Source: Streptomyces mobaraensis
GTDB lineage: Bacteria; Actinomycetota; Actinomycetes; Streptomycetales; Streptomycetaceae
Length of the DNA: 64,000 nucleotides
Assembly: GCF_020099395.1 (NCBI RefSeq)
Contig: NZ_CP083590.1
Location: forward strand, 4,340,001-4,404,000
Direction: 5' to 3'
The notes beneath the pieces are model-generated. The model was not told the origin of the DNA and did no database searches. It saw only the letters and a program-made list of their open reading frames with translations. The stretch's first letter is position 1. The number at the start of each line of letters is the position of its first letter. The position numbers and the translations under genes were made by a program. Shown piece after piece: positions 29,856 to 45,173 of this stretch.

Positions 29856-29859
29856 CGGC

Positions 29860-29887
29860 TGGTATCCCCAGCAGGATTCGAATCTGC
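29860..29887 (-). other. tRNA 3'-end-like remnant
   Basis: On the minus strand the sequence reads as a T arm (GCAGATTCGAATCCTGC) followed by TGGGGATACCA. An A-C mismatch sits at the conserved last T-stem pair, and no matching 5' acceptor or D arm lies upstream, so it is not a gene. Its position beside a copied hairpin suggests an older or internal attachment site. Confidence 0.5.
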
Positions 29888-29940
29888 GGCAACCTGTCGC
29901 CCGCACTCGGTGCTCTCGCTTCCCTCCCACTAGCTTCCCG

Positions 29941-30091
29941 GCTGCCATCCCGTCTGCCGTCGTCCCACACGCATGTGGAGCGGGCTTGGCCCGGGGTGTC
30001 CAGGTGGAGCGCCCGGCTGGACGAACGACCTGGACGCCCCGGGCCAAGGCTGCTCGGCTTCGCCTGGGTCGACGGCAGACGGGATGGCAGC
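29941..30091. repeat. 151-bp imperfect palindrome
   Basis: Outer arms are a perfect 22-bp inverted repeat (29941-29962 with 30070-30091). Inner arms of 21 bp (29985-30005 with 30028-30048) match except for one G-T pair, with a 22-nt loop. The rest of the 29785-30321 gap holds only the hairpin, the tRNA-like remnant and GC-rich sequence without a gene. It could be a recombination, replication or transfer site of the lost element. Confidence 0.75.
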
Positions 30092-30321
30092 TCCCCCCTC
30101 AACCCCATGCGACCCGCACCCGCCCGCCGGCCCCCCGCCATCCCGGAGTCGGAGCGCCCCCGCCGGAGGCATCCGTTCTGAGGGAAAGTGGCGACTCCGC
30201 TTCAGTCGCGCGGCCGGGCGGACCCGGGCCGGAGCGGGGCGGAGACAGGAGCGGCGGCCCGGGGGAGCCGGGCCGCGCGCGGCGAGCGGAGCGAGCCGCC
30301 TTGAACCCGTAGAGAAGGTTG

Positions 30322-30735
30322 TTACTCAGTCGGCCGGGGCGGCAACAGCGGTCTGAAGGGGTAGGTGGTGAACCGCCTGGAGCAGGTGGGGAGTCGGGAC
30401 TTCGAGCGGTCGGCCAGGGGGAGGAAGAGGGCCGGGCGGATCGTCCACGTCAACTCCATCTCACCCCGGGTCGCCGTGTAGGTGCACATGTGGCCCGCGA
30501 TGAGCGATGACGCGGCCTGGGTCCTCTCGGCCCACGCCCGGGCGGCCGCCGCCTCCTTCTCCTCTGGGGTGGTCGCCATCATCTCCATGGCCACGATGAC
30601 GCCGATGACGGCTTCGGCCGCGCTTCGCGCGTCAAAGGCCGTGACCAGCTTGGGGCCGTCGGTGACCCCACCGAAGACGACGTTGCAGGAGCACCAGTAG
30701 CCGCCCTTTAAGGCTGATGAGTCGCGTCGCTTCAT
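30322..30735 (-). CDS. Unknown 137-aa protein cotranscribed with the RsbW-like ATPase
   Basis: From an ATG at 30735 with GGGAGAAG upstream, overlapping the ATPase stop by 4 bp (ATGA). The middle (KLVTAFDARSAAEAVIGVIVAMEMMA, then TTPEEKEAAAARAWAERTQAASSLIAGHMC) is mostly helical; a Cys pair (YWCSCNVV) and one later Cys (HMCTYTA) could bind metal. The last about 35 residues look like run-on into GC-rich DNA. No family was recognised. Coupling suggests it works with the anti-sigma-like ATPase, for example as partner or target. Confidence 0.65.
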   Translation of the reverse strand: MKRRDSSALKGGYWCSCNVVFGGVTDGPKLVTAFDARSAAEAVIGVIVAMEMMATTPEEKEAAAARAWAERTQAASSLIAGHMCTYTATRGEMELTWTIRPALFLPLADRSKSRLPTCSRRFTTYPFRPLLPPRPTE

Positions 30736-31160
30736 CGTTCTTCTCCCATGGTTGTCGGGGTGGTCACGAGCTCGGCGGTCACGGTGTGGCCCCTCCTGTC
30801 CCCGCGGACCGTCGTCCTGGTCGCGAGGCAGCAGACGAGGGACAGGCCCCGGCCGCTGGACGCGGTCGGCTGCGGGTGACCGATCACCGGCCTGGTGGGG
30901 GAGCCGCCGGCGTCCGCGACGGAGATGGCGATGACGTGCTCGGACACGCACAGCGCGACGTGGAAGTGCCCGACCCGGCAACCGCTCGCGGTGTGGAGCA
31001 CGGCGTTGCTGCTCAGCTCGCTCACGATCACCTCGGCGTCACCGGCGTAAGGCGAGTGCCGCAGCACGTCGCGCGTCCAGCGCCGAACGCGTCCGACCTC
31101 TTCCACGGAACCTGGGCAAGTGAGCCCCCAGACCCGCGCCTCACTCATATACTCATCCAT
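30732..31160 (-). CDS. ATP-binding protein, RsbW/anti-sigma-factor-like (HATPase_c_2)
   Basis: 142 aa. A stand-alone histidine-kinase-type ATPase domain with VRRWTRDVL, the N box (VSELSSNAVLHT), a G1-like DAGGSP and the GRGLSLVCCLA G2 region. Streptomyces has dozens of these; in known cases they bind or phosphorylate anti-anti-sigma partners, or act as free regulators. The start ATG at 31160 is preceded by AAAGGA. It sits inside the island between the Nudix gene and its own small partner gene, all on the minus strand. Confidence 0.85.
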   Translation of the reverse strand: MDEYMSEARVWGLTCPGSVEEVGRVRRWTRDVLRHSPYAGDAEVIVSELSSNAVLHTASGCRVGHFHVALCVSEHVIAISVADAGGSPTRPVIGHPQPTASSGRGLSLVCCLATRTTVRGDRRGHTVTAELVTTPTTMGEER

Positions 31161-31205
31161 ACAAGTTCCTTTGTGCTGGTAGGCCGCTATGGGTAGTGGA
31201 TTCAG

Positions 31206-31637
31206 CTAGACGAGTCGCACGCCGTCATGGGCTCGGACGGCCGGCGGGTTCGCCGCGTCGAGCGCGTCCAGGACGCGTATCGCGTACGCCTCGTCGGCAA
31301 GTTCCACGACCTCGTCGCGCGTCGCCCAGCGCAGTGCCCGGGTCTCGGCGCCCGTGGTCGGGTTCCCGTCGATCGCCTCGCAGCGGAAGACGAGGGAGAC
31401 GATCAAGCCGGTCATGTTCTTGTACACGCCAGTCAGGACCGCCGGAGTCGCGATCTTGATTCCGGTCTCTTCGAGTACTTCGCGCTCCAGGGCGTCGGGG
31501 ATCGTCTCCCCGGCCTCCAGTACTCCCCCGGGCGGTTCCCAGTGGCCGTTGTCCCGCCGCTTGATCAGCAGGGCGCGGCCCTGGTCGTCGACGATGATCC
31601 CGGCGACGCTCACGGAGTGAGGGCGCTCTGTGCTCAC
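31206..31637 (-). CDS. Nudix hydrolase, Pif-like position in integrative element
   Basis: 143 aa from a GTG at 31637, with GAGGAAC just upstream. The Nudix box is complete (residues 37-60: GGVLEAGE, then RE, then LEETGI), with SVSVAGIIVDDQGRALLIKR leading into it. It should hydrolyse a nucleoside diphosphate-linked substrate. In pSAM2 the Nudix-motif protein Pif blocks transfer into cells already carrying the element; the position here, divergent from a HutC-type GntR repressor in a tRNA-bounded island, suggests the same role. That role is inference. Confidence 0.87.
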   Translation of the reverse strand: MSTERPHSVSVAGIIVDDQGRALLIKRRDNGHWEPPGGVLEAGETIPDALEREVLEETGIKIATPAVLTGVYKNMTGLIVSLVFRCEAIDGNPTTGAETRALRWATRDEVVELADEAYAIRVLDALDAANPPAVRAHDGVRLV

Positions 31638-31696
31638 GTTCCTCGGTCCCCTTTGGCTGGCTAGGCTCTCCACCGTAGCAACAGAACTTGGCCGCT

Positions 31697-31706
31697 TGTC
31701 TAGACA
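31697..31706. promoter_or_regulatory. Operator for the GntR/HutC repressor
   Basis: TGTCTAGACA is a perfect palindrome containing GTCTAGAC, which fits the HutC-subfamily operator consensus GT-N-TA-N-AC. It lies 16 bp before the repressor start, in the 85-bp divergent gap shared with the Nudix gene, so autoregulation and control of both genes are likely. Confidence 0.75.
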
Positions 31707-31722
31707 CCTAAGGGAGTACCCG

Positions 31723-32511
31723 ATGGCTCCTCTGCCTTCCGGCCTTCTCGGCGCACTGGACCCGACGAGTGATCGGGCGGTCTTCCGCCAGATCGCCGAC
31801 CAACTGCGCATGGCGATCGACAAGGGGCGTTTCCGCGAGGGCGACAAGCTTCCGTCGGAATCCGAGCTGGTGGAGCACTTCGCCGTCTCGCGGATGACCG
31901 TGCGGCACTCGCTCTCCATCCTCCAGGGCGAGGGCCTGGTGTCGTCCGAGCATGGCAAGGGCGTCTTCGTCCGGCCGCGCCCGCCGGTGCGCCGGCTGGC
32001 TTCCGACCGCTTCGCCCGGCGTCACCGCGAGCAAGGAAAGTCCGCCTTTACGGTGGAAGCGGAAGCCGCGGGAAGCCGACCGGAGGTTGACAGCCTGGAG
32101 GTCCGGGAGGAACGGCCTGCGCCCGACATCGCGGCCCGCCTCGACGGCGCCCGGCGAGTGCTCGCCCGACGGCGGCGCTACCTCCTCGATCAACGTCCGG
32201 TCGAGTTCGCCACCTCCTACATCCCGCTGGATCTGGCCAGGAACACTCCGATCGCCGAGCCCAACCCCGGCCCGGGCGGCATCTATGCCCGTCTCGAAGA
32301 ACTCGGCCACCGCCTCGACCACTTCGACGAGGAGATCCGGGCCCGGATGCCTTCGCCGGCCGAGGTGAAGACGCTCCGCCTGGCGTCGGGCGTTCCGGTC
32401 ATCCACCTGGTGCGGACCGCCTTCGACACCGAGGGCCGTGCCGTCGAGGTTTGCGACACCGTCATGGCGGCCGACGCGTACGTTCTCGCCTACCAACTGC
32501 CCGCCACTTGA
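31723..32511 (+). CDS. GntR-family repressor, HutC subfamily (KorSA-like)
   Basis: 262 aa from the ATG at 31723 with AAGGGAG seven bases upstream. An N-terminal winged helix (FRQIADQLRMAIDKGRF, LPSESELVEHFAVSRMTVRHSL, GLVSSEHGKGVFVRPRP) is followed by a UTRA/HutC ligand domain (RRYLLDQRPVEFATSYIPLDLA, VIHLVRTAFDTEGRAVEVCDTVM). In the pSAM2 group such repressors (KorSA) hold replication and transfer genes silent. It is transcribed towards the tRNA-Arg gene and ends about 135 bp before it. Confidence 0.9.
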   Translation: MAPLPSGLLGALDPTSDRAVFRQIADQLRMAIDKGRFREGDKLPSESELVEHFAVSRMTVRHSLSILQGEGLVSSEHGKGVFVRPRPPVRRLASDRFARRHREQGKSAFTVEAEAAGSRPEVDSLEVREERPAPDIAARLDGARRVLARRRRYLLDQRPVEFATSYIPLDLARNTPIAEPNPGPGGIYARLEELGHRLDHFDEEIRARMPSPAEVKTLRLASGVPVIHLVRTAFDTEGRAVEVCDTVMAADAYVLAYQLPAT

Positions 32512-32592
32512 GGCCGCTCAGGCGGGCTTCCCACCCGCGCCGCCGATGCGCCGAGGAGTTGTCGTCGGTCGAAGCGGACGCCCGAGGCGTCG

Positions 32593-32646
32593 ACTGATGC
32601 CGAAGGGGCACCTAGGAACGTTCCTAGGTGCCCCTTCGGCATCAGT
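32593..32646. repeat. Perfect 54-bp palindrome touching the tRNA 3' end
   Basis: 27-bp arms are perfectly complementary with no spacer (centre AACGTT at 32617-32622). The right end reaches the tRNA discriminator base at 32646. It may terminate tRNA-Arg transcription (minus strand) or take part in integration. A dyad this long and exact is well beyond a normal terminator. Confidence 0.85.
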
Positions 32647-32687
32647 GCCCCCGGGCAGATTCGAACTGCCGACACCCGCTTTAGGAG
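32645..32687 (-). repeat. Right attachment-site repeat, within tRNA-Arg
   Basis: Identical over 43 bp to 28471-28513. It spans the tRNA 3' end through the anticodon, the usual core for actinomycete element integrases. Confidence 0.88.
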
Positions 32688-32718
32688 AGCGGTGCTCTAT
32701 CCCCTGAGCTACGGAGGC
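32646..32718 (-). tRNA. tRNA-Arg(CCT)
   Basis: A 73-nt cloverleaf on the minus strand: acceptor GCCTCCG with CGGGGGC (one T-G pair) plus discriminator A; D arm with AGCTCAGGGGATAGAGC; anticodon stem CCGCT/AGCGG around loop CTCCTAA, giving anticodon CCT; T arm GGCAG-TTCGAAT-CTGCC. CCA is not encoded. The integrated element lies against its 3' end and restores an intact gene. Confidence 0.95.
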
Positions 32719-32813: not shown

Positions 32814-33602
32814 TCAGCGGGGGGCGATCAGGAGGGTCTGGAGGATTCTGCCGCAGTTGCCCGACGCGTCGTCCAGGCGGCCCTCGGCCAGGCCCGAGCC
32901 GGCGGGGGCGGCGGCGGTGGACGAGGTCAGGCAGAGCCATTCGCCGACCGGGTCGCGGTGCAGGGCGAGGGTGACGTCGGTGTTGATGACGAGGCCGTTG
33001 ACGTGGTCGAGTTCGAAGCCGACGGCCCAGTTGCTGTCGGCCAGGGTCAGGGCGCGGGTCAGCGGGGTGTCCTCCTCGCCCGCCACCAGGGGGATCCGCT
33101 GGCGTGCCCAGGCCGTGCCGGGGCCGGGGGTGTCGAATCCGCCGCCGGACGCGAAGCGCCACTCCATCGCCGAGACGTAGCCGTCCGTGTACGCGCCCTT
33201 GAAGCCGTGCTCCGGCTGGGGCTCGGGGAGGGCGGGCGGGGGCGGGTCGTGGCGCAGGGCCGGGGTGTCCGGCGGGGCGGCGGCCGTCCGCCAGGCGCGG
33301 GCCAGCATCACCGGGCGGCCGTTCGCGGTGATCTCGCCTTCGAGGAGTTCCGTGCGGCGCCCGCCGCGGACCGTGCGCACGCGCACCAGCAGGTCGCCCA
33401 CCGGCACCGGGGCCGGGATCTCCAGCGTCACGCGCGCCACCCGGAAGCCCTCCCGGGGTTCGTGCCGTTCCATCGCCCGGCCCAGGAGGGCGGACGGCGG
33501 GCCCGCGTGCTGCGCCTCGGGGCTCCACGGGCCCGCTGTGGCGGGCGTGCTCTCGTAGCGGCCGTCCCCCGCGTCCCGGTAGAAGGACTCGTCCGGTGCC
33601 AT
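32814..33602 (-). CDS. Acyl-CoA thioesterase family protein (TesB-like double hotdog)
   Basis: 262 aa. A double-hotdog arrangement is suggested by the N-terminal half (WSPEAQHAGPPSALLGRAMER, RVARVTLEIPAPVPVGDLLV) and the C-terminal half (FELDHVNGLVINTDVTLALHRDPVGEWLCLTSS, then GSGLAEGRLDDASGNCGRILQTLLI). This matches the actinobacterial thioesterase family related to TesB. Likely substrates are acyl-CoAs; specificity is unknown. It lies 120 bp downstream of the VOC gene on the same strand, so it could be the tail of the hydrazine cluster, though it is common elsewhere as a stand-alone gene. Confidence 0.85.
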   Translation of the reverse strand: MAPDESFYRDAGDGRYESTPATAGPWSPEAQHAGPPSALLGRAMERHEPREGFRVARVTLEIPAPVPVGDLLVRVRTVRGGRRTELLEGEITANGRPVMLARAWRTAAAPPDTPALRHDPPPPALPEPQPEHGFKGAYTDGYVSAMEWRFASGGGFDTPGPGTAWARQRIPLVAGEEDTPLTRALTLADSNWAVGFELDHVNGLVINTDVTLALHRDPVGEWLCLTSSTAAAPAGSGLAEGRLDDASGNCGRILQTLLIAPR

Positions 33603-33722: not shown

Positions 33723-34574
33723 TCAGTGGGGCGGCGTTCTCAGCTCGGCCCTGGTTCCGCCCGGCAGGGTCAGGACGGCGGGGGCTTCCGGCGTACCCTC
33801 GGGCGACCCGGCCGTTCCCGTCAGTTCCGCGACCTGCTCCGGTGACCGTGCCAGCAGAGTGAAGGCGATCGGTTCCGTGTCCGTCGCGGTCGTCAGCAGC
33901 AGGTTGCCCACGATCGCCGTCCCCTCGGGAGCCTCCGCTTCCGCCTCCGTTTCCAGCGCCGTCCGATAGAAGCGGACCGCCTCGGCCAGCCCGCCCGCCG
34001 GCACCGCGTGCCGGGCCAGGAGGCGTACGCCCGTGTCCGTCGCCTCGCGGACGGCGAGGCCCGGGCGCGGGGAGGGGCGTTCGCCGGGCTGCGGGCGGTG
34101 TTCGACCAGCTCGGCGAGGGAGCCGTCCGGATACCGCACCCGGGCCCGCGAACCCGGCTTGATCGCCTCGACCGGCTCCAGGACCTCCGTCCCCGTCCGC
34201 TCCAGCAGCCCCAGCTGGCCGGCCAGGGACGGCACGATGAGCGAGTACGCCGTCCGCCGCTGGACGGGCGTGAACGGCCGCTCGCTCGCGATGAGGAGCA
34301 AGTTGCCCACGGCGGCCAGTTCCAGACCGCCGAAGTCCGGGATGGGCATGCGCAGGTCGGCCGGGACGCCGAGGAGACGCTCGTAGAACGCGATCCGGTC
34401 GTCCAGGTCCGCCAGCTCGATCAGCAGCCTCGCCAGCAGCCGGGGCCGGTCGAGGGAGGACGAGTCCGGGCGGGTGCGGAACCAGCGGTCCGCCGCAGGG
34501 GTCCGTGCCGTCACGCTTTCCGTGGGGCTGCTTTCCGGTGGTGCCTCGACCTGCGTCAAGTCCCATACTCCCAT
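33723..34574 (-). CDS. Tandem VOC (glyoxalase/bleomycin-resistance fold) protein
   Basis: 283 aa from the ATG at 34574, overlapping the acyltransferase stop by 19 bp. Two VOC-like halves are visible: residues about 42-160 (LARLLIELADLDDRIAFYE … LELAAVGNLLLIAS … RYPDGSLAELVE) and 185-280 (LARHAVPAGGLAEAVRFYR … TAIVGNLLLTTA … LTLPGGTRAEL). Clear metal-binding His/Glu sets are hard to see, so it could be a binding or resistance protein rather than an enzyme. It closes the operon and may give self-protection against, or tailor, a reactive hydrazine product; this is inference from position. Confidence 0.8.
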   Translation of the reverse strand: MGVWDLTQVEAPPESSPTESVTARTPAADRWFRTRPDSSSLDRPRLLARLLIELADLDDRIAFYERLLGVPADLRMPIPDFGGLELAAVGNLLLIASERPFTPVQRRTAYSLIVPSLAGQLGLLERTGTEVLEPVEAIKPGSRARVRYPDGSLAELVEHRPQPGERPSPRPGLAVREATDTGVRLLARHAVPAGGLAEAVRFYRTALETEAEAEAPEGTAIVGNLLLTTATDTEPIAFTLLARSPEQVAELTGTAGSPEGTPEAPAVLTLPGGTRAELRTPPH

Positions 34575-36274
34575 TCGTCGTTCGGTTCCTTTCGTTCCGT
34601 CCACCACTCCCGGCCCCGCAGTCCCCACGCCGCGAACTCCTCCGCCGCCAGCTCGCGCAGCGACCGGGCGTCGCCGAAGTGGTCGGGGATCGCCGTCACG
34701 GTCACGGTCAGCCGGTCGCCGACGCGTACCGCGCACAACGACACGCGCAGGCCCGCCCGTTCGGGCACCAGACCGGGCACGTTCATCGTGCGCAGGGCCA
34801 CGCCGACGGCCGACTGACCCGCGAAGCGGCGTACGCCGTCCGGCAGCGTGCCGAAGTTGGACGCGACGACGTCGGTCGCCTGGGCGCCGGGCGTCTTGAG
34901 CCGGTCGGCGTACCGGCGCGGCAGCAGGTGCCACAGCGGCTCGGGCACCAGCGTGGCGCTGTGCTCCCCCGTCCCGTCCAGCGCGGCCTTGGTGCTCCGG
35001 CGCGTCGGCCCCAGGTCCGTCCGGCGGACCGGGCCCGCCGGTAGGGACAGAGGGACGACGACGAGGGCGTTGGCGCGCACGTCGGCGGTCGTACGCCGCA
35101 GGCTCACCGGGACGCCGACCCGGATCGCGGCCCGGTCGCCGAGCGGTACGCGGGCGCGGACGAGGTTGGCGGCGATCTCGACGAACAGGCTGTTCGCCGT
35201 GCCGCCGTGGGCCCGTGCCCGCTCGTCCCACTCCGCGGCGTCGAAGTCGAACACCGCGGTGGAGAAGAAGCGCGGCGCGGACGCCGGTGGTTTCGGTGCC
35301 GGCCGCAGGGCCGCCGCGAGCTCCGCGCGGGCCCGCCGGTCGGGGAGCGTCCGCGCCGTCCAGCCCGCCGTCGCGGCCACGGCACGCGCCACCTGCCGTA
35401 CGGCATCGGCGAGATCGCCGTCCGCCGCCCCGGCGAGCGGCCCCCGCCGGCCGGGCGGCGGACCGTCCTCCGTCAGGGCCGTGAAGATCCCCATCCCGTC
35501 GGCACGGAAGTGCGGCACGGTGAGTGACACCAGCGCCCCCCGGCCGTGCGGCGCCGACGCCAGCCGCCAGAGGGCCCCGGAGCCGGCCGGCAGGGGAGCG
35601 CGGACCTGCTCGTCGATCCACTCCCACGCCGTGTCGTCCGTCAGGCGCGCCGGGTACGGGCGCGGGGGCTCCGCGTTGTGCGCGGGCACCCACGCACGGC
35701 GCGCCGCCGGGACGCGGGCCGCGGCCGGGCGGCGGCTGAGCCGGCCCCGGTCGAGCCGCTCCCACTCCGCGCGCAGGGCGGCCGGCGGCACCGGCTCCGG
35801 AAGGCGCCACAGCACCTGCACGATCCGGGACGAGCCGAGGGCCCGCTCGGCGCGGTACAGCATCTCGTCGGTGGGGTTGAGCCGGGCGGACGGGGGAGGG
35901 GCGGTGGTGCGACGAGTGGGGCGGCGGGCGCCGCGACGGGTGGGATGGGCCGCCGGGGGAGCCTCTCTTCTCGCGTGGCCGCTCGCGTGGCCGTTCGTGT
36001 TCCCGTTCACGTTGCCGTTCGCTTGGCCGTCTCCGCTCACGTCAGCGTCTTCCGCCGTGTGAGCGTCTTCCGCCACGTGAGCGTCCTCGGCCACGTGAGC
36101 GTCTTCCGCCACGTGACGGTTCCCGGCCGCGCGAGCGTCGCCTGCCACGTGACCGTCCTCCGGCATACGGCTGTCCCCCGCCCTACGACCGTCCTCTGCC
36201 ACACGACCGTCCCCCGCCACGTGACCCTCTCCCGCCACACGACCGTCCCCCACCAAACGATCGCCTCCCCTCAC
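34556..36274 (-). CDS. WS/DGAT or condensation-like acyltransferase with repeat-rich N-terminus
   Basis: 572 aa from a GTG at 36274 that overlaps the oxidase stop (GTGA). Residues 1-132 are repetitive Gly/Asp/His/Ala (units such as HVAEDA and GDGRVA) and then Asn/Gly and Arg-rich. The catalytic fold starts near LNPTDEMLYRAERALG and has the acyltransferase motif His255-Phe-Arg-Ala-Asp259-Gly260 (VPHFRADG). The C-terminal half (IRVGVPVSLRRTTADVRANALVVVPLSLP, SNFGTLPDGV, LTVTVTAIPDHFGDARSLRELA) matches wax-ester synthase/DGAT-type proteins and NRPS condensation domains. It may acylate the hydrazine amine or acid. An internal start near residue 138 cannot be excluded. Confidence 0.83.
   Translation of the reverse strand: MRGGDRLVGDGRVAGEGHVAGDGRVAEDGRRAGDSRMPEDGHVAGDARAAGNRHVAEDAHVAEDAHVAEDAHTAEDADVSGDGQANGNVNGNTNGHASGHARREAPPAAHPTRRGARRPTRRTTAPPPSARLNPTDEMLYRAERALGSSRIVQVLWRLPEPVPPAALRAEWERLDRGRLSRRPAAARVPAARRAWVPAHNAEPPRPYPARLTDDTAWEWIDEQVRAPLPAGSGALWRLASAPHGRGALVSLTVPHFRADGMGIFTALTEDGPPPGRRGPLAGAADGDLADAVRQVARAVAATAGWTARTLPDRRARAELAAALRPAPKPPASAPRFFSTAVFDFDAAEWDERARAHGGTANSLFVEIAANLVRARVPLGDRAAIRVGVPVSLRRTTADVRANALVVVPLSLPAGPVRRTDLGPTRRSTKAALDGTGEHSATLVPEPLWHLLPRRYADRLKTPGAQATDVVASNFGTLPDGVRRFAGQSAVGVALRTMNVPGLVPERAGLRVSLCAVRVGDRLTVTVTAIPDHFGDARSLRELAAEEFAAWGLRGREWWTERKEPNDEWEYGT
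36035..36253. repeat. Imperfect tandem repeats in acyltransferase 5' coding region
   Basis: About eleven or twelve 18-bp-period units related to CACGTGAGCGTCTTCCGC (plus strand), translated on the minus strand as DxxVAEDxxVAGD-type repeats. The period is a multiple of three, so copy number can vary without frameshift. Confidence 0.75.
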
Positions 36275-37455
36275 GCGATCACCTCCCCGATCCGCTCCGC
36301 CGCGTACCGCCCGACCGCGGGCGCCTTCTTGAAGCCGCCGCCGTTCCAGCCGACGGCCGTGACCAGCCCCCGTGGGTCCGGCCAGACGGTCACCGCGCCC
36401 CCGCCCTCCGGCGCGAGCGCGTCGAAGGCGGTGACCCCGCCGACGACGTCCGCGTCGCCGAGCGCCGGGCAGCGGTACCGCGCGACCTCGCGGACGCGCT
36501 TCACCTCCGTGTCCGGTACGCCCTGGGTGATCAGCGGCGGTACGTCGCACTCCCGGGACGGCACCCCCGCCAGCACGGCGGAGCCGTCGTCCCAGCGGCG
36601 CAGCCAGCCGCCGGTCGTGGTGTCGAGGACGGCCGGCAGGACGCCCGGGACGGGGACGCGCGGTGCGAAGACGCAGAAGCTCACCGACCGGGTGCGCAGC
36701 GGGAGTTCGACGCCCGCCGTGCGGGCCAGGGCGGTGCTGCCGACCCCCGCGGCCAGCAGCACGGCCCCGGCCGCGACGAAGCCGTCGGTGGTCCGGACGC
36801 CGGTCACCCGGGAACGCGCGGTGACGATCTCCAGCGCCCGGGCGCGGAGCACGGTGACCGTGTCCGCGTCCCGGAGCATCGCCTCGGCCACGGCCCGCGC
36901 CGGCAGCCAGCCGGCGCGGGGTTCGTGGACGCCGACCATCCCCTCGGGCGGGGCCAGGCCGGGGAAGGCCGCGGCGATCTCCCGCGCGTCGAGGACCTCG
37001 ACCGGGAAACCGGCGGCCTGTACCCGTTCGGCGCCCGCCGCGGCCCGCCCGGCGGCGTCCGCGGCGAACAGGGTGAGACTGCCGTGCTCCCGGACGGCCG
37101 GCCAGCGGCCGTGGCCGCCGCGCCGCAGGTAGCGTCCGAGCCCCTCCGCCGCCCAGTCCCGGGCGGCGGAGGAACCGGAGCCGGAGGAATCGGCGCCGGA
37201 GGAACCGGAGCCGGAGGAAACGGAGACGGAATCGGAGTCCGAGTCCGAGTCCGAGTCGGCGAAGGACGGGTCGAGCGCCCGGACCAGCCCGCCGGACGCC
37301 CCGGTGACGCCGCCCGCCACGCCGCGGTCGTCGATGACGATCACGGAGTGGCCGCGGGCGGCGAGGCGTTCGGCGGTGGCGAGGCCGATGACGCCGGCGC
37401 CGACCACGGCGACGTCGGCGGTCCTGGCACCGGCGGTGGTGACGGTGGTCGTCAC
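36271..37455 (-). CDS. FAD-dependent DAO-family oxidase (Spb39-like role in hydrazine release)
   Basis: 394 aa from a GTG at 37455 that overlaps the N-hydroxylase stop (GTGA). The N-terminus holds the dinucleotide fold (VAVVGAGVIGLATAERLAAR … SVIVIDD) and GGVTGASGGLVRA; the C-terminus has DALAPEGGGAVTVWPDPRGLV and GWNGGGFKKAPAVGR, typical of the glycine/D-amino-acid oxidase family. In known hydrazine clusters such an enzyme cleaves the lysine-hydrazine adduct to the free hydrazino acid. Residues 67-97 are an inserted Asp-Ser then Gly-Ser run (DNA 37165-37257) just after a conserved block, which looks like repeat expansion in a surface loop. Confidence 0.87.
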   Translation of the reverse strand: MTTTVTTAGARTADVAVVGAGVIGLATAERLAARGHSVIVIDDRGVAGGVTGASGGLVRALDPSFADSDSDSDSDSVSVSSGSGSSGADSSGSGSSAARDWAAEGLGRYLRRGGHGRWPAVREHGSLTLFAADAAGRAAAGAERVQAAGFPVEVLDAREIAAAFPGLAPPEGMVGVHEPRAGWLPARAVAEAMLRDADTVTVLRARALEIVTARSRVTGVRTTDGFVAAGAVLLAAGVGSTALARTAGVELPLRTRSVSFCVFAPRVPVPGVLPAVLDTTTGGWLRRWDDGSAVLAGVPSRECDVPPLITQGVPDTEVKRVREVARYRCPALGDADVVGGVTAFDALAPEGGGAVTVWPDPRGLVTAVGWNGGGFKKAPAVGRYAAERIGEVIA

Positions 37456-38876
37456 CGGAGGGCCTCGTCCGGTACGAGGCGGTCCGTCACGAGGCCGTCC
37501 GTCACGGGGCCGTCCGTTCCAAGGCCGCCCGTTCCGAGGCGGTCCGTCACGAGGTGGTCCGGAACAAGAGCGTCCGGCTCCAGCATCAGCGACTCCACGA
37601 TGTCCGTGGACCGGGCGGACAGCACCGCCAGCGCGCCCGCGTCGCCCATGCCGTGGCTCGCCTCGCACAGCCCGTTGAGGTACAGGCGCAGCGGGCGCGA
37701 GCCGTAGGAGTGCCGTGAGGAGCTCCGTGCGACCGGGACCGAGTAGTCGCGGGCCACGGCGGGGATGCCCTCCTCGGTCAGCGCGAGCCGGTCGGCCACG
37801 TCCGCCAGCAGCGGGTGGTAGGGCTCGTCGTCGGGTCCGAGGCCGAAGTCCCGGAAGCCCGTGGCGAGGACGACGACGTCGGCGTCGTAGACGCCGCGCG
37901 TGTCGGTGTTGACGTCGCGGACGACGAGCCGGTGCACGCCGCCGTCCCCGTGCGGGGCCACCTCGGACACCTCGGAGAACGGCATCAGCCGCAGCCGGTC
38001 GGAGCCCTTCAGCTCGTACTCGTGCTGGACGGTCGCCAGCCGGTCGATGACGTCCTGGTCGCACGCCGCGTAGTTGATCGACCGCAGCTCCGCGCGGATC
38101 CGCCGCTTGGTCTCGGCGGGGAGCGGATAGAAGTAGTCGATGAACTCCGGCAGGAAGACGCGGCGGCTGTACGGGCTGGTGTCCTTCAACCGGAAGCCGA
38201 TGCCCCGCTGGACGGACACCACCTGCGCGACGTCGTCCCGGCCGAGCAGGTCGAGGACGATCTCGATGGCGCTCTGGCTGCCGCCGACGACCGCGACCCG
38301 CAGGGCCCGCCCGCGCAGCCGGCGCAGCGAACTCAGGTAGCGGGTGGCGTGGAAGACCGTCGGCCCCAGGCGGCGGCGGAACACCGGGGGGATGCGCGGT
38401 GAGCGGCCGGTGCCGATGACGACCGTCTCGCCCAGGTACTGCCGGCCGTCGTCGGTCTCCAGCCGGAACACCTCGCCGTCCGCGGTGTCCGCGACGGTCA
38501 GCCGGGTCGCCGACCGCCCGTAGTCGACCGCGTCGCGGAAGGAGTCGGCGACCCAGCGCAGGTAGCCGGCGTACTCGCGGCGCAGCGGGAACTTGGCGTT
38601 CAGGTGCAGGTAGTCCGTCAACCGCCCCTGCGAGGCGAGGTAGTTGACGAAGGTGTAGGCGCTACCGGTGTTGCGCGGCATGGTCAGGTCGCGGAACGGA
38701 TTGTTCTGGATGTCCGCGCCGTCGATGAGCTGCTCGTCCTGCCACTGGAAGTCCGCGGCCCGCTCGACGAACCGGGACCGGCCGGTGTAGCCGAGTTCCT
38801 CCATGGTCACGGCGAGGGACAGGTTGGCCGGGCCGAAACCGATGCCCAGCACCGAATGGATCTCGTGCTCCGTCAT
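37452..38876 (-). CDS. L-lysine/L-ornithine N-hydroxylase (SidA/IucD/PvdA family), Spb38-like
   Basis: 474 aa. A class B flavin N-monooxygenase using NADPH and O2 to hydroxylate an omega-amine. It has the FAD motif GIGFGPANLSLA (residues 11-22), the substrate-site stretch QWQDEQLIDGADIQNNPFRDL, the NADPH motif VAVVGGSQSAIEIV and the late ATGFRDFG motif. Context (MetRS-like and cupin genes) points to lysine and formation of N6-hydroxylysine; siderophore use is less likely because no NIS or NRPS gene is present. The last about 40 residues are repeats of VTDGLVTDRL/LGTDGP type, an unusual tail made by a repetitive gene end. Confidence 0.9.
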   Translation of the reverse strand: MTEHEIHSVLGIGFGPANLSLAVTMEELGYTGRSRFVERAADFQWQDEQLIDGADIQNNPFRDLTMPRNTGSAYTFVNYLASQGRLTDYLHLNAKFPLRREYAGYLRWVADSFRDAVDYGRSATRLTVADTADGEVFRLETDDGRQYLGETVVIGTGRSPRIPPVFRRRLGPTVFHATRYLSSLRRLRGRALRVAVVGGSQSAIEIVLDLLGRDDVAQVVSVQRGIGFRLKDTSPYSRRVFLPEFIDYFYPLPAETKRRIRAELRSINYAACDQDVIDRLATVQHEYELKGSDRLRLMPFSEVSEVAPHGDGGVHRLVVRDVNTDTRGVYDADVVVLATGFRDFGLGPDDEPYHPLLADVADRLALTEEGIPAVARDYSVPVARSSSRHSYGSRPLRLYLNGLCEASHGMGDAGALAVLSARSTDIVESLMLEPDALVPDHLVTDRLGTGGLGTDGPVTDGLVTDRLVPDEALR

Positions 38877-38954
38877 GGCTCGTACCTTCTGATCAGGTCG
38901 TACGTAACGCGCCGGCGAGGCGCCGGGCGGAGAGGGGAGTGCGGCGGGCGCGGC

Positions 38955-39317
38955 TCACGCCGTGACCGTTTCGAGGATCTTGTTGCTCTCGTCCACGTGC
39001 ACGACGCGCGGCTTGTGCTCGGCCACCTCTTCGTCGGTGAGCTGGCCGTAGGCGATGATGATCACCTTGTCGGCGGGCTGCACCAGGCGGGCGGCGGCGC
39101 CGTTGACGATGACCTCGTTGGCGCCCGGGGCGCCAAGGATCGTGTACGTCTCGAAGCGCGCGCCGTTGTTGATGTTGACGACGTGGACGAGCTCGTGGAC
39201 GCCGATGTCGGCGGCGTCGAGCAGCTCCGGCGAGATGGTGATGGAGCCGACGTAGTTGAGGTTGCTGTCGGTGATGGTGGCGCGGTGGATCTTCGAACGC
39301 ATGAAGGTGCGCAGCAT
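38955..39317 (-). CDS. panD: Aspartate 1-decarboxylase, embedded in the hydrazine operon
   Basis: 120 aa. A pyruvoyl enzyme that converts L-aspartate to beta-alanine. The self-cleavage site Gly24-Ser25 is intact (NYVGSITIS), as are KIHRAT (Lys9), NNGARFETY and NGAAARLVQPADKVIIIAYG. Start ATG has AAGGAG upstream. PanD normally feeds pantothenate synthesis next to panC; here it is alone between the MetRS-like and N-hydroxylase genes on the same strand. A dedicated supply of beta-alanine for the pathway, as N-N coupling partner in place of glycine, is the obvious hypothesis. A misplaced housekeeping copy is the alternative. Confidence 0.95.
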   Translation of the reverse strand: MLRTFMRSKIHRATITDSNLNYVGSITISPELLDAADIGVHELVHVVNINNGARFETYTILGAPGANEVIVNGAAARLVQPADKVIIIAYGQLTDEEVAEHKPRVVHVDESNKILETVTA

Positions 39318-39422
39318 GATGTCTTTCTCCTTGGTGAGTGAGGTGCGTGAGGTGAGAGAGATGAGCGAGACGGTGAAGTCAGGCGCTTCTTAAGGAGGTT
39401 GCGCGAAAGGCGATCCGGGCCG

Positions 39423-40982
39423 TCACACGGACAGCGCGCGGAACTCCCCGGCCGGCGGCTCGGCGGCGTCCCGCAGCAGCGGGGTGCCGGTGGCGTCGGC
39501 GCCGAACGCCGTGGCCACGGCCCCGGCGAGGTCGGGGGTGACCGGCCAGGCGAGCGTGCGCAGCGTCCACAGGAACAGCAGGGCGCCGGAGACGTCGCTC
39601 GCGTCGTCGGCCCGGACCTGCCCGGCCCGCAGGGCGAGGACCTCCAGGTGGAGGGCGAGCGCCTCGGCGGCCTTGCGGATACTGAAGGTCTCCAGGGTGT
39701 ACGCGGCCTCGAACCGCCGCCGCGACGCCTCGATGGCGGCGGCCCACCAGGCGGACGGCGGGGCGTCGACGCGCCGGCCGGCCAGCTTCTCGCCGAGCGT
39801 CCGCGCGATGGTGGCGAGCGGGGTGTCGAAGCGGGCGCTGAGCGTGCCCTCGGCCACCTGCTCGGTGAACTCGGACTGCTGGAGCTCCGGGCTGGTCAGC
39901 GCGAGGACGAAGCGCGCGCGGTCCCGGCCGGCCTTCTCCAGGTACTCGCCCGCCCACAGCACGTCGCCCTTGCTGGTGGAGAACTTGCGGCCCTCCAGCA
40001 GGTAGTACTGGTTGGTGAGCGTGCGGGTGACGGGGAGCTCGACGGGCAGCCCGTGACGAACCGCCAGCAGCTTCAGCGCGACGTAGACGAAGGCGTTGTA
40101 GAAGCCGTTGTCGATCCCGATGAACTGGACGAACTCGTCGCAGCCGGCCCGGCGGCGCTCGCGGACGCGCTGCGGCCAGTAGAGGTGGCCGACGTAGATC
40201 TCCGGCCAGGCGTTGATCGCCTGCGGGGGCGCGTCGGGCCCGTCCCAGTCGACCTGGATGCCCCACGTGGAGGGGTACGTGATGGGGATGTACGGCAGCC
40301 GTCCGGCGAGCGTCAGGTCGACGACCTTCCGGAGGTCGGGCCGGAGCGGGACGTCGGAGACCTGGTACCAGTGGGTCAGGAGGGAGCGGTAGCGCTCCAG
40401 GTCGAGGACCCAGATGGAGACCGGGCGGGTCGGCAGCGCGGTCTCGGTGTCGCTCGCCAGCAGGGCGCCCGGCAGGTTGTACAGGCCGCAGGCCTCGCAG
40501 ACGCCCGCCCGGGCGTGGGCCAGGCAGGTCGGGCAGCGGCCGGTGACGAACGCCTCGGCGCGGTACTCGTCCGCCTCGGCGTCGTACGGGAGGTGCACCT
40601 CGCGCCGGTCGAAGGCGCCGTGCTTCCACAGGTGGGTGAAGAAGTCCCGGACGAACGCGGTGTACTGCTCGTCGGGCCGTTCGTAGAGGTCGACCTCGAC
40701 GCCCGCGAGTTCCAGGGAGCGGCGGGTGCTGTCCAGGGCCTGCCGGATCAGCTCTTCCGGGGTCACGCCCACCCGTTGGGCGGTGGTGACCACGTAGGTC
40801 TGGTTGTCGTCGGTGCTGCACGCGTACACCACGTCGTTGCCCAGGATCTTCTGGGACCGTGCGCAGACGTCGCTGCCGAGCACCGGGCCGGCGAGGTGGC
40901 CGAGGTGTAAGTCCCCGTTGGGCGTGGGCGGGGAGAAGCTGACGTTGACGCGGCGCACGGCGCTGTCCGTTCGCTCAGCCAC
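39423..40982 (-). CDS. Methionyl-tRNA synthetase-like protein, catalytic half of split hydrazine synthetase
   Basis: 519 aa from a GTG at 40982, overlapping the cupin stop by 8 bp. Class I synthetase motifs: HIGH-type His26-Leu-Gly-His29 (NGDLHLGHL), a zinc knuckle (Cys150, 153, 162, 165) and KMSKS-type KFSTS (333-337), with helical-bundle sequence to the end. True MetRS is an essential single-copy enzyme elsewhere. In Spb40/RHS1 the MetRS-like domain activates an amino acid and esterifies it with N6-hydroxylysine, while a fused cupin domain performs the N-N rearrangement. Here the cupin is the adjacent upstream gene, in the same order as in the fused enzymes. Amino-acid specificity cannot be read from sequence. 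Confidence 0.9.
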   Translation of the reverse strand: MAERTDSAVRRVNVSFSPPTPNGDLHLGHLAGPVLGSDVCARSQKILGNDVVYACSTDDNQTYVVTTAQRVGVTPEELIRQALDSTRRSLELAGVEVDLYERPDEQYTAFVRDFFTHLWKHGAFDRREVHLPYDAEADEYRAEAFVTGRCPTCLAHARAGVCEACGLYNLPGALLASDTETALPTRPVSIWVLDLERYRSLLTHWYQVSDVPLRPDLRKVVDLTLAGRLPYIPITYPSTWGIQVDWDGPDAPPQAINAWPEIYVGHLYWPQRVRERRRAGCDEFVQFIGIDNGFYNAFVYVALKLLAVRHGLPVELPVTRTLTNQYYLLEGRKFSTSKGDVLWAGEYLEKAGRDRARFVLALTSPELQQSEFTEQVAEGTLSARFDTPLATIARTLGEKLAGRRVDAPPSAWWAAAIEASRRRFEAAYTLETFSIRKAAEALALHLEVLALRAGQVRADDASDVSGALLFLWTLRTLAWPVTPDLAGAVATAFGADATGTPLLRDAAEPPAGEFRALSV

Positions 40983-41373
40983 GGGCCGGCTCCTGGGTCT
41001 GTGTCTGGGCCTGGGCCTGCGGTTCGGTGGTGGGCTGCGCGGTGGGCTGCGGCCAGTAGATGCTGACGAAGGTCAGCAGGGTGTCGTCACTGGTGTTGGT
41101 GACGACGTGGTCGTTGCCGTTGGGGATGTAGATGACGTCCCCCACGGTCACGTCCCGCTGCTCGTCGCCCACCCGGACCGTGCCGGAGCCGCCCGTGAAG
41201 ATGAACGTCTCGTCCGTGGCGTGCTGGTGCTTGGTGCTCGACTCGTGCGGGTGGACACTGCACAGGGTGCTGTTCCACGGCGGCACGACGACGCCGTCCC
41301 ACGGGTAGAGCTGGCGGACGTCGATGTTGTTCTTGCGCACATAGCCGTCCTCGGCCGTGGTGCGTACATACAT
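40975..41373 (-). CDS. Zinc-cupin protein, N-N bond-forming half of split hydrazine synthetase
   Basis: 132 aa from the ATG at 41373. A single cupin domain with both motifs complete: motif 1 ligands His49, His51, Glu55 (KHQHATDE) and motif 2 GDVIYIPNGNDHVVTN with His89. The N-terminus (VRKNNIDVRQLYPWDGVVVPPWNSTLCSV) resembles the cupin part of Spb40-type enzymes. The last about 25 residues are a Gln/Thr/Pro tail that may be a relic of the linker to the MetRS-like domain. It should bind zinc and rearrange the hydroxylysine ester into the N-N product. First gene of the operon. Confidence 0.87.
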   Translation of the reverse strand: MYVRTTAEDGYVRKNNIDVRQLYPWDGVVVPPWNSTLCSVHPHESSTKHQHATDETFIFTGGSGTVRVGDEQRDVTVGDVIYIPNGNDHVVTNTSDDTLLTFVSIYWPQPTAQPTTEPQAQAQTQTQEPARG

Positions 41374-42709: not shown

Positions 42710-44107
42710 TCAGGCCGGACTGTCCTCCGGCTGCGGCGCGACGGGCGCAGAGCCGACCGGGGCGCCCGTGACGGGCACCGATGCGACGGCCCCCGCCGTA
42801 ATCGGCGCTGCTCCAGCGGCCGTTGAATCGCCCGCGCCCGCGCCCGCGCCCACGGCCGCCGCCGCCGGGCCACCCCCACGCGCCGCCCGCAGCGTGACGT
42901 ACGCCAGGGTGAGCAGCGCCAACCCGGCCGCGCAGCTCAGCAGTACGCTCGCCCGGACGGAGTCCTGCAGCGCCGCCAGGATGAACGGCGCGGCGAATCC
43001 GATGTACGAGAGTGCCTGGTACACGGCGGTCAGCCCGGCCAGGTCCTTCGGACCGGCCATCCGCTGCACCTCCAGCAGCCCGCACACCTGGCAGCACCCG
43101 TATCCCGCGCCGAGCACCAGTGCCGCCAGCACCACGAGCGCCGGCTGGAGCGTCTCCGCGGCGGCGGCCGAGACCAGCAGGCCGGCCACCACGATCGCCA
43201 TCGACGACGCGATCAGCCGCGGTCGCCGCGGATCGTCCATCCGGCGTGCCAGCGGCTGCACCAGGATGCCCGCGAAGCCGGTCAGGGCGGTGACGACGGC
43301 GCCGAAGACGAGGGCGTTGCCGCCGACGCGGTCCTTCACCAGGCCGGGCAGATAGGCCAGGGCGACCGACGCGGAGCCGAACACCCAGGGGGCCAGCGGC
43401 GCGACGACGTTACGGAACCTCGGCTCGCGCACGGCGGGCACCCGCACCTGCCGCCAGACACTGCCCTCCCGCGAGCCGCCGCAGGTCTCGGGCGCGCCCC
43501 AGACCAGCGGGATGGAGAGCAGGGCCAGGGCCAGGTGCGGCAGGTAGGCGACGGTCATGGGGGACGGCGCCCACTGGGCGAGCAGGCCGGCCACCAGGGG
43601 GCCCACGGCGAAGCCGGTGGTCATGGTGATCGTCGCCCGGCGCGGGCCCGGGTTGGCCTCCCGGGTGGAGCCCGCGAGGGACAACTCCTTGATCCAGACG
43701 GTGCCGGAGCTGAACGCGGCGCCACTGGCGATGCCGGAGACCAGCCGGCCGGCGAACAGCAGCTCCTCCCGCGAGCCGCCCGCGATCAGCAGCAGGCTCG
43801 CCAGCACCGAGACGAACAGCGCGGGCAGCATCAGCCGGCGGCGGCCGTACCGGTCCGAGACGGGACCGCCGAGCAGCAGCCCCGGGACCAGGCCGATGGC
43901 GTACAGCCCGAACGTGGCCTGCACCGTGGCGGCCGACAGGCCCAACTCCGAGCGGTAGAGCAGCAGCAGCGGCGCGAACTGGTTGGCTCCCCAGCCCACC
44001 GCCGCGACCGCGACGCCGGCCCGCAGCCACGCCCGGCCGCCGATGCCGGCGGACGGCCCGGACACCGCCGCCGGGGCCGCGCGATTGGTCAACGCATGCT
44101 TGGTCAT
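42710..44107 (-). CDS. MFS transporter, possible exporter of the cluster
   Basis: 465 aa from the ATG at 44107. Twelve hydrophobic helices with the MFS motif A between TM2 and TM3 (GGPVSDRYGRRRL) and a matching loop in the second half (ARRMDDPRRPRL). The last about 60 residues are Ala/Gly/Pro/Val low complexity. It is divergently transcribed from the GlxA-like regulator with a 70-bp gap, so the regulator probably controls it. Substrate unknown; being next to the hydrazine operon makes product efflux plausible. Confidence 0.88.
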   Translation of the reverse strand: MTKHALTNRAAPAAVSGPSAGIGGRAWLRAGVAVAAVGWGANQFAPLLLLYRSELGLSAATVQATFGLYAIGLVPGLLLGGPVSDRYGRRRLMLPALFVSVLASLLLIAGGSREELLFAGRLVSGIASGAAFSSGTVWIKELSLAGSTREANPGPRRATITMTTGFAVGPLVAGLLAQWAPSPMTVAYLPHLALALLSIPLVWGAPETCGGSREGSVWRQVRVPAVREPRFRNVVAPLAPWVFGSASVALAYLPGLVKDRVGGNALVFGAVVTALTGFAGILVQPLARRMDDPRRPRLIASSMAIVVAGLLVSAAAAETLQPALVVLAALVLGAGYGCCQVCGLLEVQRMAGPKDLAGLTAVYQALSYIGFAAPFILAALQDSVRASVLLSCAAGLALLTLAYVTLRAARGGGPAAAAVGAGAGAGDSTAAGAAPITAGAVASVPVTGAPVGSAPVAPQPEDSPA

Positions 44108-44177: not shown

Positions 44178-45173
44178 ATGGCTTCTGTCGCGCTGGCCGT
44201 CACCGACGGCATGCCGTTACTGGAACTCGCCGCCGCCTGCGCCATCTTCGGGACGGACCGACCGGACCTCGTCGACTCCTGGTACGACTTCACCGTCTGC
44301 GCCCCGGCGGGCGCGCAGGTCGGGGGCTGGCTGCACGCCGACACCCCGCACGGGCTCGACGAACTGGCCACGGCCGACACCGTCATCGTCCCGGCCTGCC
44401 AGGACGTCGACCAGCCGCAGCCCGCCGACCTGATCGAGGCCGTCCGGGCCGCGCACGACGCGGGCGCCCGGGTGGCGTCCATCTGCACCGGAGCGTTCAC
44501 CCTGGCCGCCGCCGGGCTGCTCGACGGGCGGCGCGCCACCACGCACTGGCTGCACGCCGACGCGCTGGCGCGGCGCTATCCGAAGGTCGAGGTCGACCCG
44601 CGAGTGCTCTACATCGACGAGGGCTCGGTCCTCACCTCGGCCGGCCGGGCCGCCGGCATCGACCTCTGCCTGCACATGGTCCGCACCGACCACGGCACCG
44701 CCATCGCCAACGGCGTGGCCCGCCGGCTCGTCGTCGCGCCGCACCGCTCCGGCGGACAGGCGCAGTTCATCACCGCCCCCGTACCGCCGGAGAACGGCAA
44801 CAGCCTCACCGACGTACTGGCCTGGGCGCTGGAGGAGCTGCACCGGCCGCTGACCGTCACCGACCTGGCCCGCAGGGCCCATATGAGCCCGCGCAACCTC
44901 GGCCGGCACTTCGCCGCCGTCACCGGGACCACGCCCCTCCAGTGGCTGCTGACCCAACGGCTGCACCGGGCACAGGAGTTCCTGGAGCGCACCGACGACA
45001 GCGTCGACCGGATCGCCGCGCGGGTCGGGATGGGCAGCGGGGCGACGCTGCGCCGGCACTTCAACCGCGCGTTCGGCGTGCCGCCGGACACCTACCGGCG
45101 CATGTTCCGCGTGGACGGGCGCGGGGAGCGGGCCGCGGCGGAGGAGGCCACCGCGACTCCACTGGCCTCCTAA
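44178..45173 (+). CDS. GlxA-like AraC-family regulator (DJ-1/GATase1 sensor domain)
   Basis: 331 aa. Residues 1-180 form a DJ-1/PfpI-like domain (VALAVTDGMPLLELAAACAIFG, TADTVIVPACQDVDQPQP, ARVASICTGAFTLAAAGLLDGRRATTHW) with the nucleophile-elbow Cys in SICTGAF. Residues about 220-320 carry two AraC helix-turn-helix motifs (LTVTDLARRAHMSPRNLGRHF; VDRIAARVGMGSGATLRRHFNRAFGVPP). Members of this group often sense small nitrogenous metabolites. It is divergent from the MFS gene, so local control of the exporter and perhaps of the hydrazine operon is likely. Confidence 0.92.
   Translation: MASVALAVTDGMPLLELAAACAIFGTDRPDLVDSWYDFTVCAPAGAQVGGWLHADTPHGLDELATADTVIVPACQDVDQPQPADLIEAVRAAHDAGARVASICTGAFTLAAAGLLDGRRATTHWLHADALARRYPKVEVDPRVLYIDEGSVLTSAGRAAGIDLCLHMVRTDHGTAIANGVARRLVVAPHRSGGQAQFITAPVPPENGNSLTDVLAWALEELHRPLTVTDLARRAHMSPRNLGRHFAAVTGTTPLQWLLTQRLHRAQEFLERTDDSVDRIAARVGMGSGATLRRHFNRAFGVPPDTYRRMFRVDGRGERAAAEEATATPLAS

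Follow-up and report, generated by a model that had tools for sequence, protein, structure and literature searches.

The hydrazinoacetic acid pathway of s56-p1, built on Spb38-Spb39-Spb40, has a core consisting of an N-hydroxylase, a synthetase with methionyl-tRNA synthetase (MetRS)-like and cupin parts, and a DAO-type oxidase. The same core recurs in the pathways for triacsin (Tri26-28), azaserine, and N-nitroglycine (NngKLM), as described in the available parts of the sources (PMC11705231, PMC13274452). We compared these systems with a run of seven genes in Streptomyces mobaraensis, located in a 64,000-nucleotide stretch of its 7.67 Mb assembly (hereafter the window; G000:C1:4340001-4404000, with gene coordinates counted from the window start). 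This run shares the core and also encodes PanD, an aspartate 1-decarboxylase. Judging from the sequences of its enzymes, the locus is very probably a hydrazine-forming cluster, and PanD is the hallmark and defining feature of the sub-type to which it belongs.

Other described members of the family differ in architecture and in substrates. The actinopyridazinone enzymes Apy9-Apy10-Apy11 follow the same three-enzyme logic with a DAO-type oxidase, but use N4-hydroxy-2,4-diaminobutyric acid (DABA) and L-alanine and cleave on the other side of the hydrazine, so the family can change both partners, according to the sections available of the review (PMC11705231). Separate MetRS-like and cupin proteins are reported to work as a pair, and such split pairs, from Rhodococcus jostii (RHS1) and others, share with our locus the stand-alone cupin and MetRS-like protein, the lysine hydroxylase, and the glutamate of the zinc site. 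The partner of RHS1 uses glutamate, and the RHS1 cluster was found via a homologue of the saccharopine-dehydrogenase-like pyrL, according to the available text (PMC8664883). Afn8/Afn9 of albofungin are likewise described as a split pair (PMC11705231).

Unlike Spb38-40, the window cluster has a separate MetRS and cupin, together with PanD, a condensation-like acyltransferase, and a vicinal oxygen chelate (VOC) protein. It differs from the RHS1 cluster in having a flavin adenine dinucleotide (FAD) oxidase and PanD, and in replacing Asp63 with His. Unlike the Dob pathway, as described in the available text (PMC13061610), no GNAT succinyltransferase, adenylase, or carrier protein was matched in the window operon. 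The words PanD and decarboxylase do not appear in the main text of the review (PMC11705231). The individual kinds of enzyme are known, but a hydrazine synthetase linked to PanD and accompanied by a free-standing condensation-like enzyme and a VOC protein is a combination that was not recognised in the literature searched. Within that literature, which mostly excluded subscription papers and in which an absence is therefore weak, no paper describing the seven-gene set or a compound linked to it was recognised, and no paper on hydrazinopropionic acid was found under five spellings.

Gene content of the cluster and its link to PanD

The seven genes of the cluster are as follows.

40975..41373, minus strand: stand-alone zinc-type cupin, putative N-N-forming rearrangement enzyme (PF07883, E 1.5e-13)
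39423..40982 (GTG start at 40982, or at 40958), minus strand: stand-alone MetRS-like amino-acid-activating protein (PF09334, E 9e-48)
38955..39317, minus strand: PanD, pyruvoyl-type aspartate 1-decarboxylase, cluster copy (PF02261, E 9e-48; TIGR00223)
37452..38876, minus strand: flavin N-hydroxylase, lysine/ornithine type (PF13434, E 5e-80)
36271..37455, minus strand: DAO/sarcosine-oxidase-type FAD oxidase, putatively responsible for C-N cleavage of the hydrazine intermediate (PF01266, E 8e-40)
34556..36274, start uncertain, minus strand: ACYLTRANSFERASE, predicted stand-alone condensation-domain-like acyltransferase (HxxxDG; AlphaFold/Foldseek)
33723..34574, minus strand: two-lobed VOC-fold protein (profile and model matches to PA4183)

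All seven, which an earlier sequence-only reading had placed on the minus strand at 33723-41373, were recovered there with Pfam, profiles, and structural models, running from 41373 down to 33723 from the cupin to the VOC gene. That reading had also described the gene ends as mostly overlapping, and four of the six junctions do overlap: cupin/MetRS by 8 bases, hydroxylase/oxidase by 4, acyltransferase/VOC by 19, and oxidase/acyltransferase by 4, provided that translation begins with the GTG at 36274. The remaining junctions are gaps of 105 (MetRS-PanD) and 78 bases (PanD-hydroxylase).

The gene order cupin-MetRS-PanD-hydroxylase-oxidase-acyltransferase-VOC was identical in 22 of 22 distinct clusters (the window and 21 relatives), an arrangement far beyond chance. 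Eighteen of the relatives were found by scanning contigs with the MetRS-like protein, a scan based on exact peptide patterns that gives a lower bound; all 18 loci had the same order and strand, with MetRS-like proteins 55-86% identical to the window copy. Three further loci with the same arrangement (L051, L053, and L054) came from a genus-wide search of 392 genomes. In the most distant cluster, the MetRS-like protein was 55% and the oxidase 34% identical to those of the window. The cluster is carried by records titled Streptomyces, Kitasatospora, Streptantibioticus, Microtetraspora (a label that may be wrong), Kibdelosporangium, Actinomadura, and Nocardia. The sub-type occurred in 8 of the 392 genus genomes, with MetRS-like proteins at least 74% identical to the window copy, and the remaining matches listed were all at most 44% identical. 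Because a class-wide search of 394 genomes gave no cluster at E 1e-90 beyond the window's own, the sub-type is sparse. In a plasmid collection, the best MetRS-like matches were 39% identical (best 15 of 313 matching records).

PanD directly followed the MetRS gene in all 22 clusters. Its window copy scored above the TIGR00223 equivalog cut-off (146 vs 106 bits), and Lys9, His11, Tyr22, Gly24-Ser25, Arg54, Thr57, and Tyr58 were kept in this copy and in those of 21/21 relatives; we take Gly24-Ser25 to be the pyruvoyl precursor and Lys9, Tyr22, Arg54, Thr57, and Tyr58 to be catalytic. The possibility that the cluster PanD is the sole copy of its genome was ruled out by a second PanD at G000:C1:828052, to which the cluster copies of the 21 relatives were 47-53% identical. 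Since all 22 host genomes hold at least one more PanD, the cluster PanD is an extra copy. Among 16 other MetRS/cupin loci, of which about 19 kb was read, PanD, the acyltransferase, and the VOC protein each occurred in 0/16, as against 22/22 in the clade. Furthermore, in a survey of 80 genomes, PanD lay within 15 kb of only 1 of 87 non-clade MetRS-like genes; 7 of the 80 genomes gave no PanD match, and contig breaks can hide such links. The sole exception (G296), in which PanD is 10.5 kb from the MetRS-like gene, was rejected as a cluster-type link: the protein is of the housekeeping type, being 68% identical to the other PanD of the window genome and 57% to the cluster PanD, and lies outside the hydroxylase-MetRS gene run.

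Most of the clusters carry one additional gene. A FAD_binding_3 monooxygenase gene precedes the cupin gene in 19 of 22 clusters, the exceptions being the window, L051, and L003, and the window set is therefore a reduced version. The idea that the missing monooxygenase is encoded elsewhere in the window's genome was set aside because no match was found at 1e-10, an empty answer that alone shows little.

Relationships and conserved sites of the cluster enzymes

The sequence-only reading had assigned the locus to the N-N-forming clusters of the MetRS/cupin kind, and phylogeny had been named beforehand as a test that could overturn it, which it did not do. In the trees, the MetRS-like proteins and the hydroxylases each formed a separate 100/100 clade. 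A wide distance separated the 22 MetRS-like members from L071, a housekeeping MetRS, and a housekeeping or resistance MetRS was therefore set aside as an identity; their scores also fell far short of what NCBIfam requires for MetRS (179 against 553 bits, for instance). The cluster hydroxylases were separated from the genome's three other hydroxylases with PF13434, which are presumed to be of the siderophore type and one of which (L079) grouped with four outgroup hydroxylases; an origin as a siderophore-cluster enzyme was accordingly set aside. Two outgroup hydroxylases (L060 and L068) were left out of this tree because their called open reading frames (ORFs) were too long. The nearest solved relatives of the hydroxylase were lysine N6- and ornithine N5-monooxygenases, with L-lysine 6-monooxygenase 5cqf first (E 9e-60), and a flavin N-hydroxylase was co-located in 22/22 clusters.

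The cupin profile detected RHS1 (PDB 5UQP) at E 6e-14. His49, His51, Glu55, and His89 of the window cupin were invariant in 18/18 aligned cupins (9 from the clade and 9 from the outgroup) and aligned with Asp63, His65, Glu69, and His103 of RHS1, the PDB chain numbering offset of 3 having been counted by hand, so that the site matches RHS1 at His65, Glu69, and His103. These four residues of RHS1 are reported to be its zinc ligands, the glutamate alone being named as invariant across all cupins tested there, according to the available text (PMC8664883). Because the MetRS-like proteins and hydroxylases form separate clades and the cupin keeps the RHS1 zinc site except for Asp63, the locus is best classed as a MetRS/cupin hydrazine cluster. 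Homology thus upholds the hydrazine class proposed by the sequence-only reading, and PanD, which that reading left unexplained, here defines the sub-type; the acylated hydrazino acid that it also proposed is a putative product.

The amino-acid pocket of the MetRS-like protein was analysed in all 38 proteins (22 from the clade and 16 from the outgroup; one other comparison used 18 of the 38, including 8 of the 22), at 14 methionine-pocket positions whose identity and roles we presumed from E. coli MetRS. At the positions of Ala13, Ala257, Pro258, Tyr261, His302, and Trp306 in E. coli MetRS (M1 numbering), clade members carry Ser, Ile, Tyr, His, Asn, and Tyr. Five of these residues were invariant in 22/22 members and Tyr at 263 was found in 21/22, and none of the 16 outgroup proteins shared any of them. 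Clade-specific residues thus occupied 6 of the 14 pocket positions, compared with 63 of all 519 columns (p 0.003-0.004 in a hypergeometric test computed for 60, 62, and 64 columns taken as independent, and descriptive only). This indicates a single amino-acid specificity common to the clade and unlike that of the outgroup. Among the seven conserved genes, that for MetRS encodes the only recognised amino-acid-activating enzyme.

The oxidase profile matched sarcosine oxidase 7exs (E 1e-30). A sarcosine-oxidase-type oxidase was present in 22/22 clusters, and a related oxidase (28-91 bits) occurred within about 19 kb in 12 of the 16 other MetRS/cupin loci, a make-up that resembles Spb38-39-40.

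The acyltransferase had no Pfam match in any of 13 aligned members at E up to 1, no NCBIfam match (in the one relative compared, L013), and no meaningful sequence match in the PDB even as a profile, with one chance match at E 0.95. Its HxxxDG motif, already pointed out in the sequence-only reading, was invariant in the 13 aligned members. The AlphaFold model of its conserved part, with a predicted local distance difference test score (pLDDT) of 81 and a predicted template modelling score (pTM) of 0.84, matched condensation domains of non-ribosomal peptide synthetases (NRPSs) (Foldseek best E 2e-18, prob 1.0). Matches to AzeD, CmnI, NRPS condensation domains, and wax ester synthase ranged from E 2e-18 to 3e-16, with query template modelling (TM) scores of 0.4-0.6. 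The model therefore predicts a free-standing condensation-domain-like protein. NRPS condensation domains, AzeD, CmnI, and wax ester synthase have an HxxxDG motif. In comparison with these relatives of the same fold (PDB 8s6l, 9uay, and 6chj), the window acyltransferase is free-standing, has no Pfam match, and has no carrier protein matched nearby. No polyketide synthase (PKS) or NRPS family and no adenylation or carrier domain was matched by Pfam among 47 window ORF references, some overlapping, which cover part of the window's ORFs. The earlier description of a cluster without PKS or NRPS therefore stands as to families matched, with the qualification that the acyltransferase itself has the NRPS condensation-domain fold.

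The match of the VOC protein to Glyoxalase_6 was weak (3.5e-4, short of the curated cut-off; at E up to 1, 5 of 12 members matched), and PA4183 was matched with both the profile (E 6e-19) and the model (E 2e-11). Its model is two-lobed (pLDDT 82). The N-terminal lobe, which matched PA4183 with a TM score of 0.87 by target length, is highly conserved, and the C-terminal lobe poorly so. The double VOC fold suggested earlier is supported by the PA4183 matches together with the two-lobed model. These family alignments are subsets (13 acyltransferase, 12 VOC, and 18 cupin sequences), and another alignment held 11.

Low-complexity stretches lie inside or at the ends of the acyltransferase, oxidase, and hydroxylase genes of the window (36010-36274, 37168-37257, and 37455-37556) and at the C-terminus of the cupin, and consist of Val-Ala-Glu-Asp-type repeats, a Ser-Asp/Ser-Gly run, and Val-Thr-Asp repeats. 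Those at 36010-36274 (acyltransferase) and 37168-37257 (oxidase) are absent from the relatives aligned. The conserved part of the window acyltransferase begins near 35890, and the repetitive stretch with which the window copy opens is absent from the 18 relatives compared, in which the acyltransferase start lies 1-4 bases ahead of the point where the oxidase gene ends.

A proposed beta-alanine route and its alternatives

From the enzymes, their order, and their conserved catalytic motifs, we infer substrates, a cleavage side, an acylation, and a product as follows. PanD would decarboxylate L-aspartate to beta-alanine, and the flavin enzyme would N-hydroxylate an omega-amine, most likely that of L-lysine. 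The MetRS-like protein would adenylate beta-alanine and esterify it to the hydroxylamine (N6-hydroxylysine), and the zinc cupin would rearrange the ester to the N-N conjugate N6-(2-carboxyethylamino)-lysine. The FAD oxidase would then cut the lysine-side C-N bond, freeing 3-hydrazinopropionic acid; the condensation-domain-like acyltransferase may acylate its hydrazine or carboxyl, and the VOC protein may modify or bind the product, which the major facilitator superfamily (MFS) protein encoded nearby may export. It is fairly probable that the MetRS-like enzyme takes the PanD-made beta-alanine, and we hold with slightly better than even confidence that the locus combines hydrazine formation of the MetRS/cupin kind with a beta-alanine supply of its own and follows the full pathway given here.

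Several points weigh against this proposal. Its substrates and product are all deduced, as is the side on which the oxidase cleaves, the Spb39 and Apy10 sequences being outside the comparison. The pocket residues mark a distinct specificity without telling which amino acid is used, and the 14 positions were chosen with the alignment already in view. For this family, the available sections of the review list Gly, Ala, Ser, Glu, and Tyr, without beta-alanine (PMC11705231). With a beta-amino acid, the rearrangement would have to be six-membered rather than five-membered. Asp63 of RHS1 is His in all 18 aligned cupins, the outgroup included, and the change D63A is reported to have inactivated RHS1 (PMC8664883). 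The tree program warned of long branches for both the MetRS-like and the hydroxylase trees. The 22 clusters are related by descent, two of them (L011 and L012) being near-identical, and the link to PanD therefore represents one evolutionary event. Lastly, the window cluster is without the FAD monooxygenase carried by the great majority of the clusters.

The extra PanD could instead serve as self-protection, a spare and perhaps tolerant copy, with the MetRS-like protein taking a common alpha-amino acid, for example glycine or alanine. Hydrazines react with pyruvoyl enzymes and trap pyruvoyl and carbonyl cofactors, and a spare PanD would hence be of use; the cluster PanD is indeed a diverged extra copy (47-53% identity over the 21 relatives) beside another PanD in all 22 genomes. 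We nevertheless consider this rather unlikely, given that PanD immediately follows MetRS within the biosynthetic operon of 22/22 clusters, whereas other hydrazine-type loci that would face the same hazard do without it (0/16, and 1/87 by distance, that one being an unrelated copy). Alternatively, beta-alanine might be used later, either joined by the condensation-like enzyme to a hydrazino acid built from glycine or alanine or, through PanD, raising the supply of coenzyme A (CoA) for an acyl-CoA. The conservation of a free-standing condensation-domain fold in the same operon fits this possibility, but MetRS is the sole recognised amino-acid activator of the seven and the 47 ORF references contained no adenylation or carrier domain, making a later use of beta-alanine unlikely.

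Beta-alanine might also be the hydroxylamine partner, hydroxylated by the flavin enzyme while MetRS supplies an alpha-amino acid. The flavin N-hydroxylase family acts on the omega-amines of varied substrates. N4-OH-putrescine and N3-OH-DAPN figure as partners in the available sections of the review, which also describes amine partners as limited to amino acids (PMC11705231). This assignment is very unlikely, however, considering that the closest solved relatives of the hydroxylase act on lysine or ornithine and that the retained oxidase fits the removal of lysine as in Spb39. A locus with no role in hydrazine formation at all, in which the MetRS-like protein and the cupin take part in, for example, a tRNA-like or metallophore function, would be compatible with the lack, to our knowledge, of activity measurements on these 22 clusters. 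It is extremely improbable in view of the joint presence of an N-hydroxylase, a cupin with an RHS1-type zinc site, a MetRS-like protein, and an oxidase, and of trees in which the MetRS-like proteins are separate from housekeeping MetRS and the N-hydroxylases from the others that the genome encodes. We retain the beta-alanine route as the preferred reading of the cluster.

Surroundings of the cluster and wider meaning

The following features flank the seven genes in the window.

32645-32718: tRNA-Arg (CCT), past the thioesterase gene
32814..33602, minus strand: acyl-CoA thioesterase-like protein (4HBT_3), accessory (PF13622/PF20789)
42710..44107, minus strand: MFS transporter, probable exporter, accessory (PF07690)
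44178..45173, plus strand: GlxA/AraC-type regulator, divergent from the MFS gene, accessory (DJ-1_PfpI and HTH_18)

The thioesterase gene, 120 bases from the VOC gene, was found in 7/22 clusters (6 of the 21 relatives; several other loci end before that position). In the closest relative, L051, a transposase-like ORF (16942-18741), which we take to resemble IS110, lies between the VOC and thioesterase genes. Relatives of the MFS gene were found near 3 of the 21 clusters (L003, L020, and L051), short matches in L005, L014, and L016 having been excluded because they are to sequence antisense to the regulator gene. The GlxA/AraC-type regulator had relatives in 7/21 loci, one of which is truncated where its contig stops.

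In many of the monooxygenase-bearing clusters, the VOC gene is followed by a korAB-like 2-oxoacid:ferredoxin oxidoreductase pair. KorA was full-length in 7/22 clusters (L011, L012, L013, L018, L019, L053, and L054), five of which also had a ferredoxin gene, and was cut by contig ends in five more (L006, L008, L009, L010, and L015). The cluster korAB was 99.2% identical to the other korAB of the genome over 2.9 kb in S. filamentosus, 95% in S. griseofuscus, and 80% in S. spinosus; this second copy looks to have been re-copied or converted in some genomes. The pair may supply acyl-CoA or reduced ferredoxin, or may confer target-type self-resistance. A cytochrome P450 gene was found near six clusters (L004, L005, L007, L014, L016, and L020), accompanied by a ferredoxin gene in three, and these six had no korAB in the stretch read. 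Tailoring appears to differ from cluster to cluster. Gamma-butyrolactone-type regulatory genes (AfsA, TetR-type receptors, and SDR) lie upstream in 11/21 relatives (L006, L007, L008, L010, L011, L013, L015, L017, L018, L053, and L054), in many cases with a DDE transposase-like gene; the window contains neither.

Elsewhere in the window, the region at 27300-32718, which lies beside the tRNA-Arg(CCT) gene and carries GntR/UTRA regulator, NUDIX, and HNH genes, has a lower guanine-plus-cytosine content (0.65-0.70 at 28-32 kb) and looks like the remnant of an integrative element; no integrase was found among the ORFs scanned. In a protein encoded at 16530-18671 (minus strand), an Mrr-type restriction endonuclease domain is joined to a TerD domain.

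Enzymes that form N-N bonds are wanted for biocatalysis. The 2021 enzyme survey searched for lysine conjugates with the twenty amino acids, according to its available text (PMC8664883). Because the conjugates of beta-alanine and alanine have equal masses, enzymes of this kind could be missed or misassigned. We suggest tentatively, as something that may well prove otherwise, that the clade is the first hydrazine synthetase lineage to use a beta-amino acid, forming an N-N bond to N6-hydroxylysine and yielding 3-hydrazinopropionic acid, shaped like gamma-aminobutyric acid (GABA), which would be acylated to a secreted antimetabolite. 3-Hydrazinopropionic acid is the carbon-nitrogen skeleton of the drug meldonium. 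If the proposal is true, a beta-alanine-using lineage would provide a direct enzymatic entry to 3-hydrazinopropionate. The seven-gene set itself is compact, has turned up in records from several actinomycete genera, culture-collection strains among them, and lends itself to direct testing.

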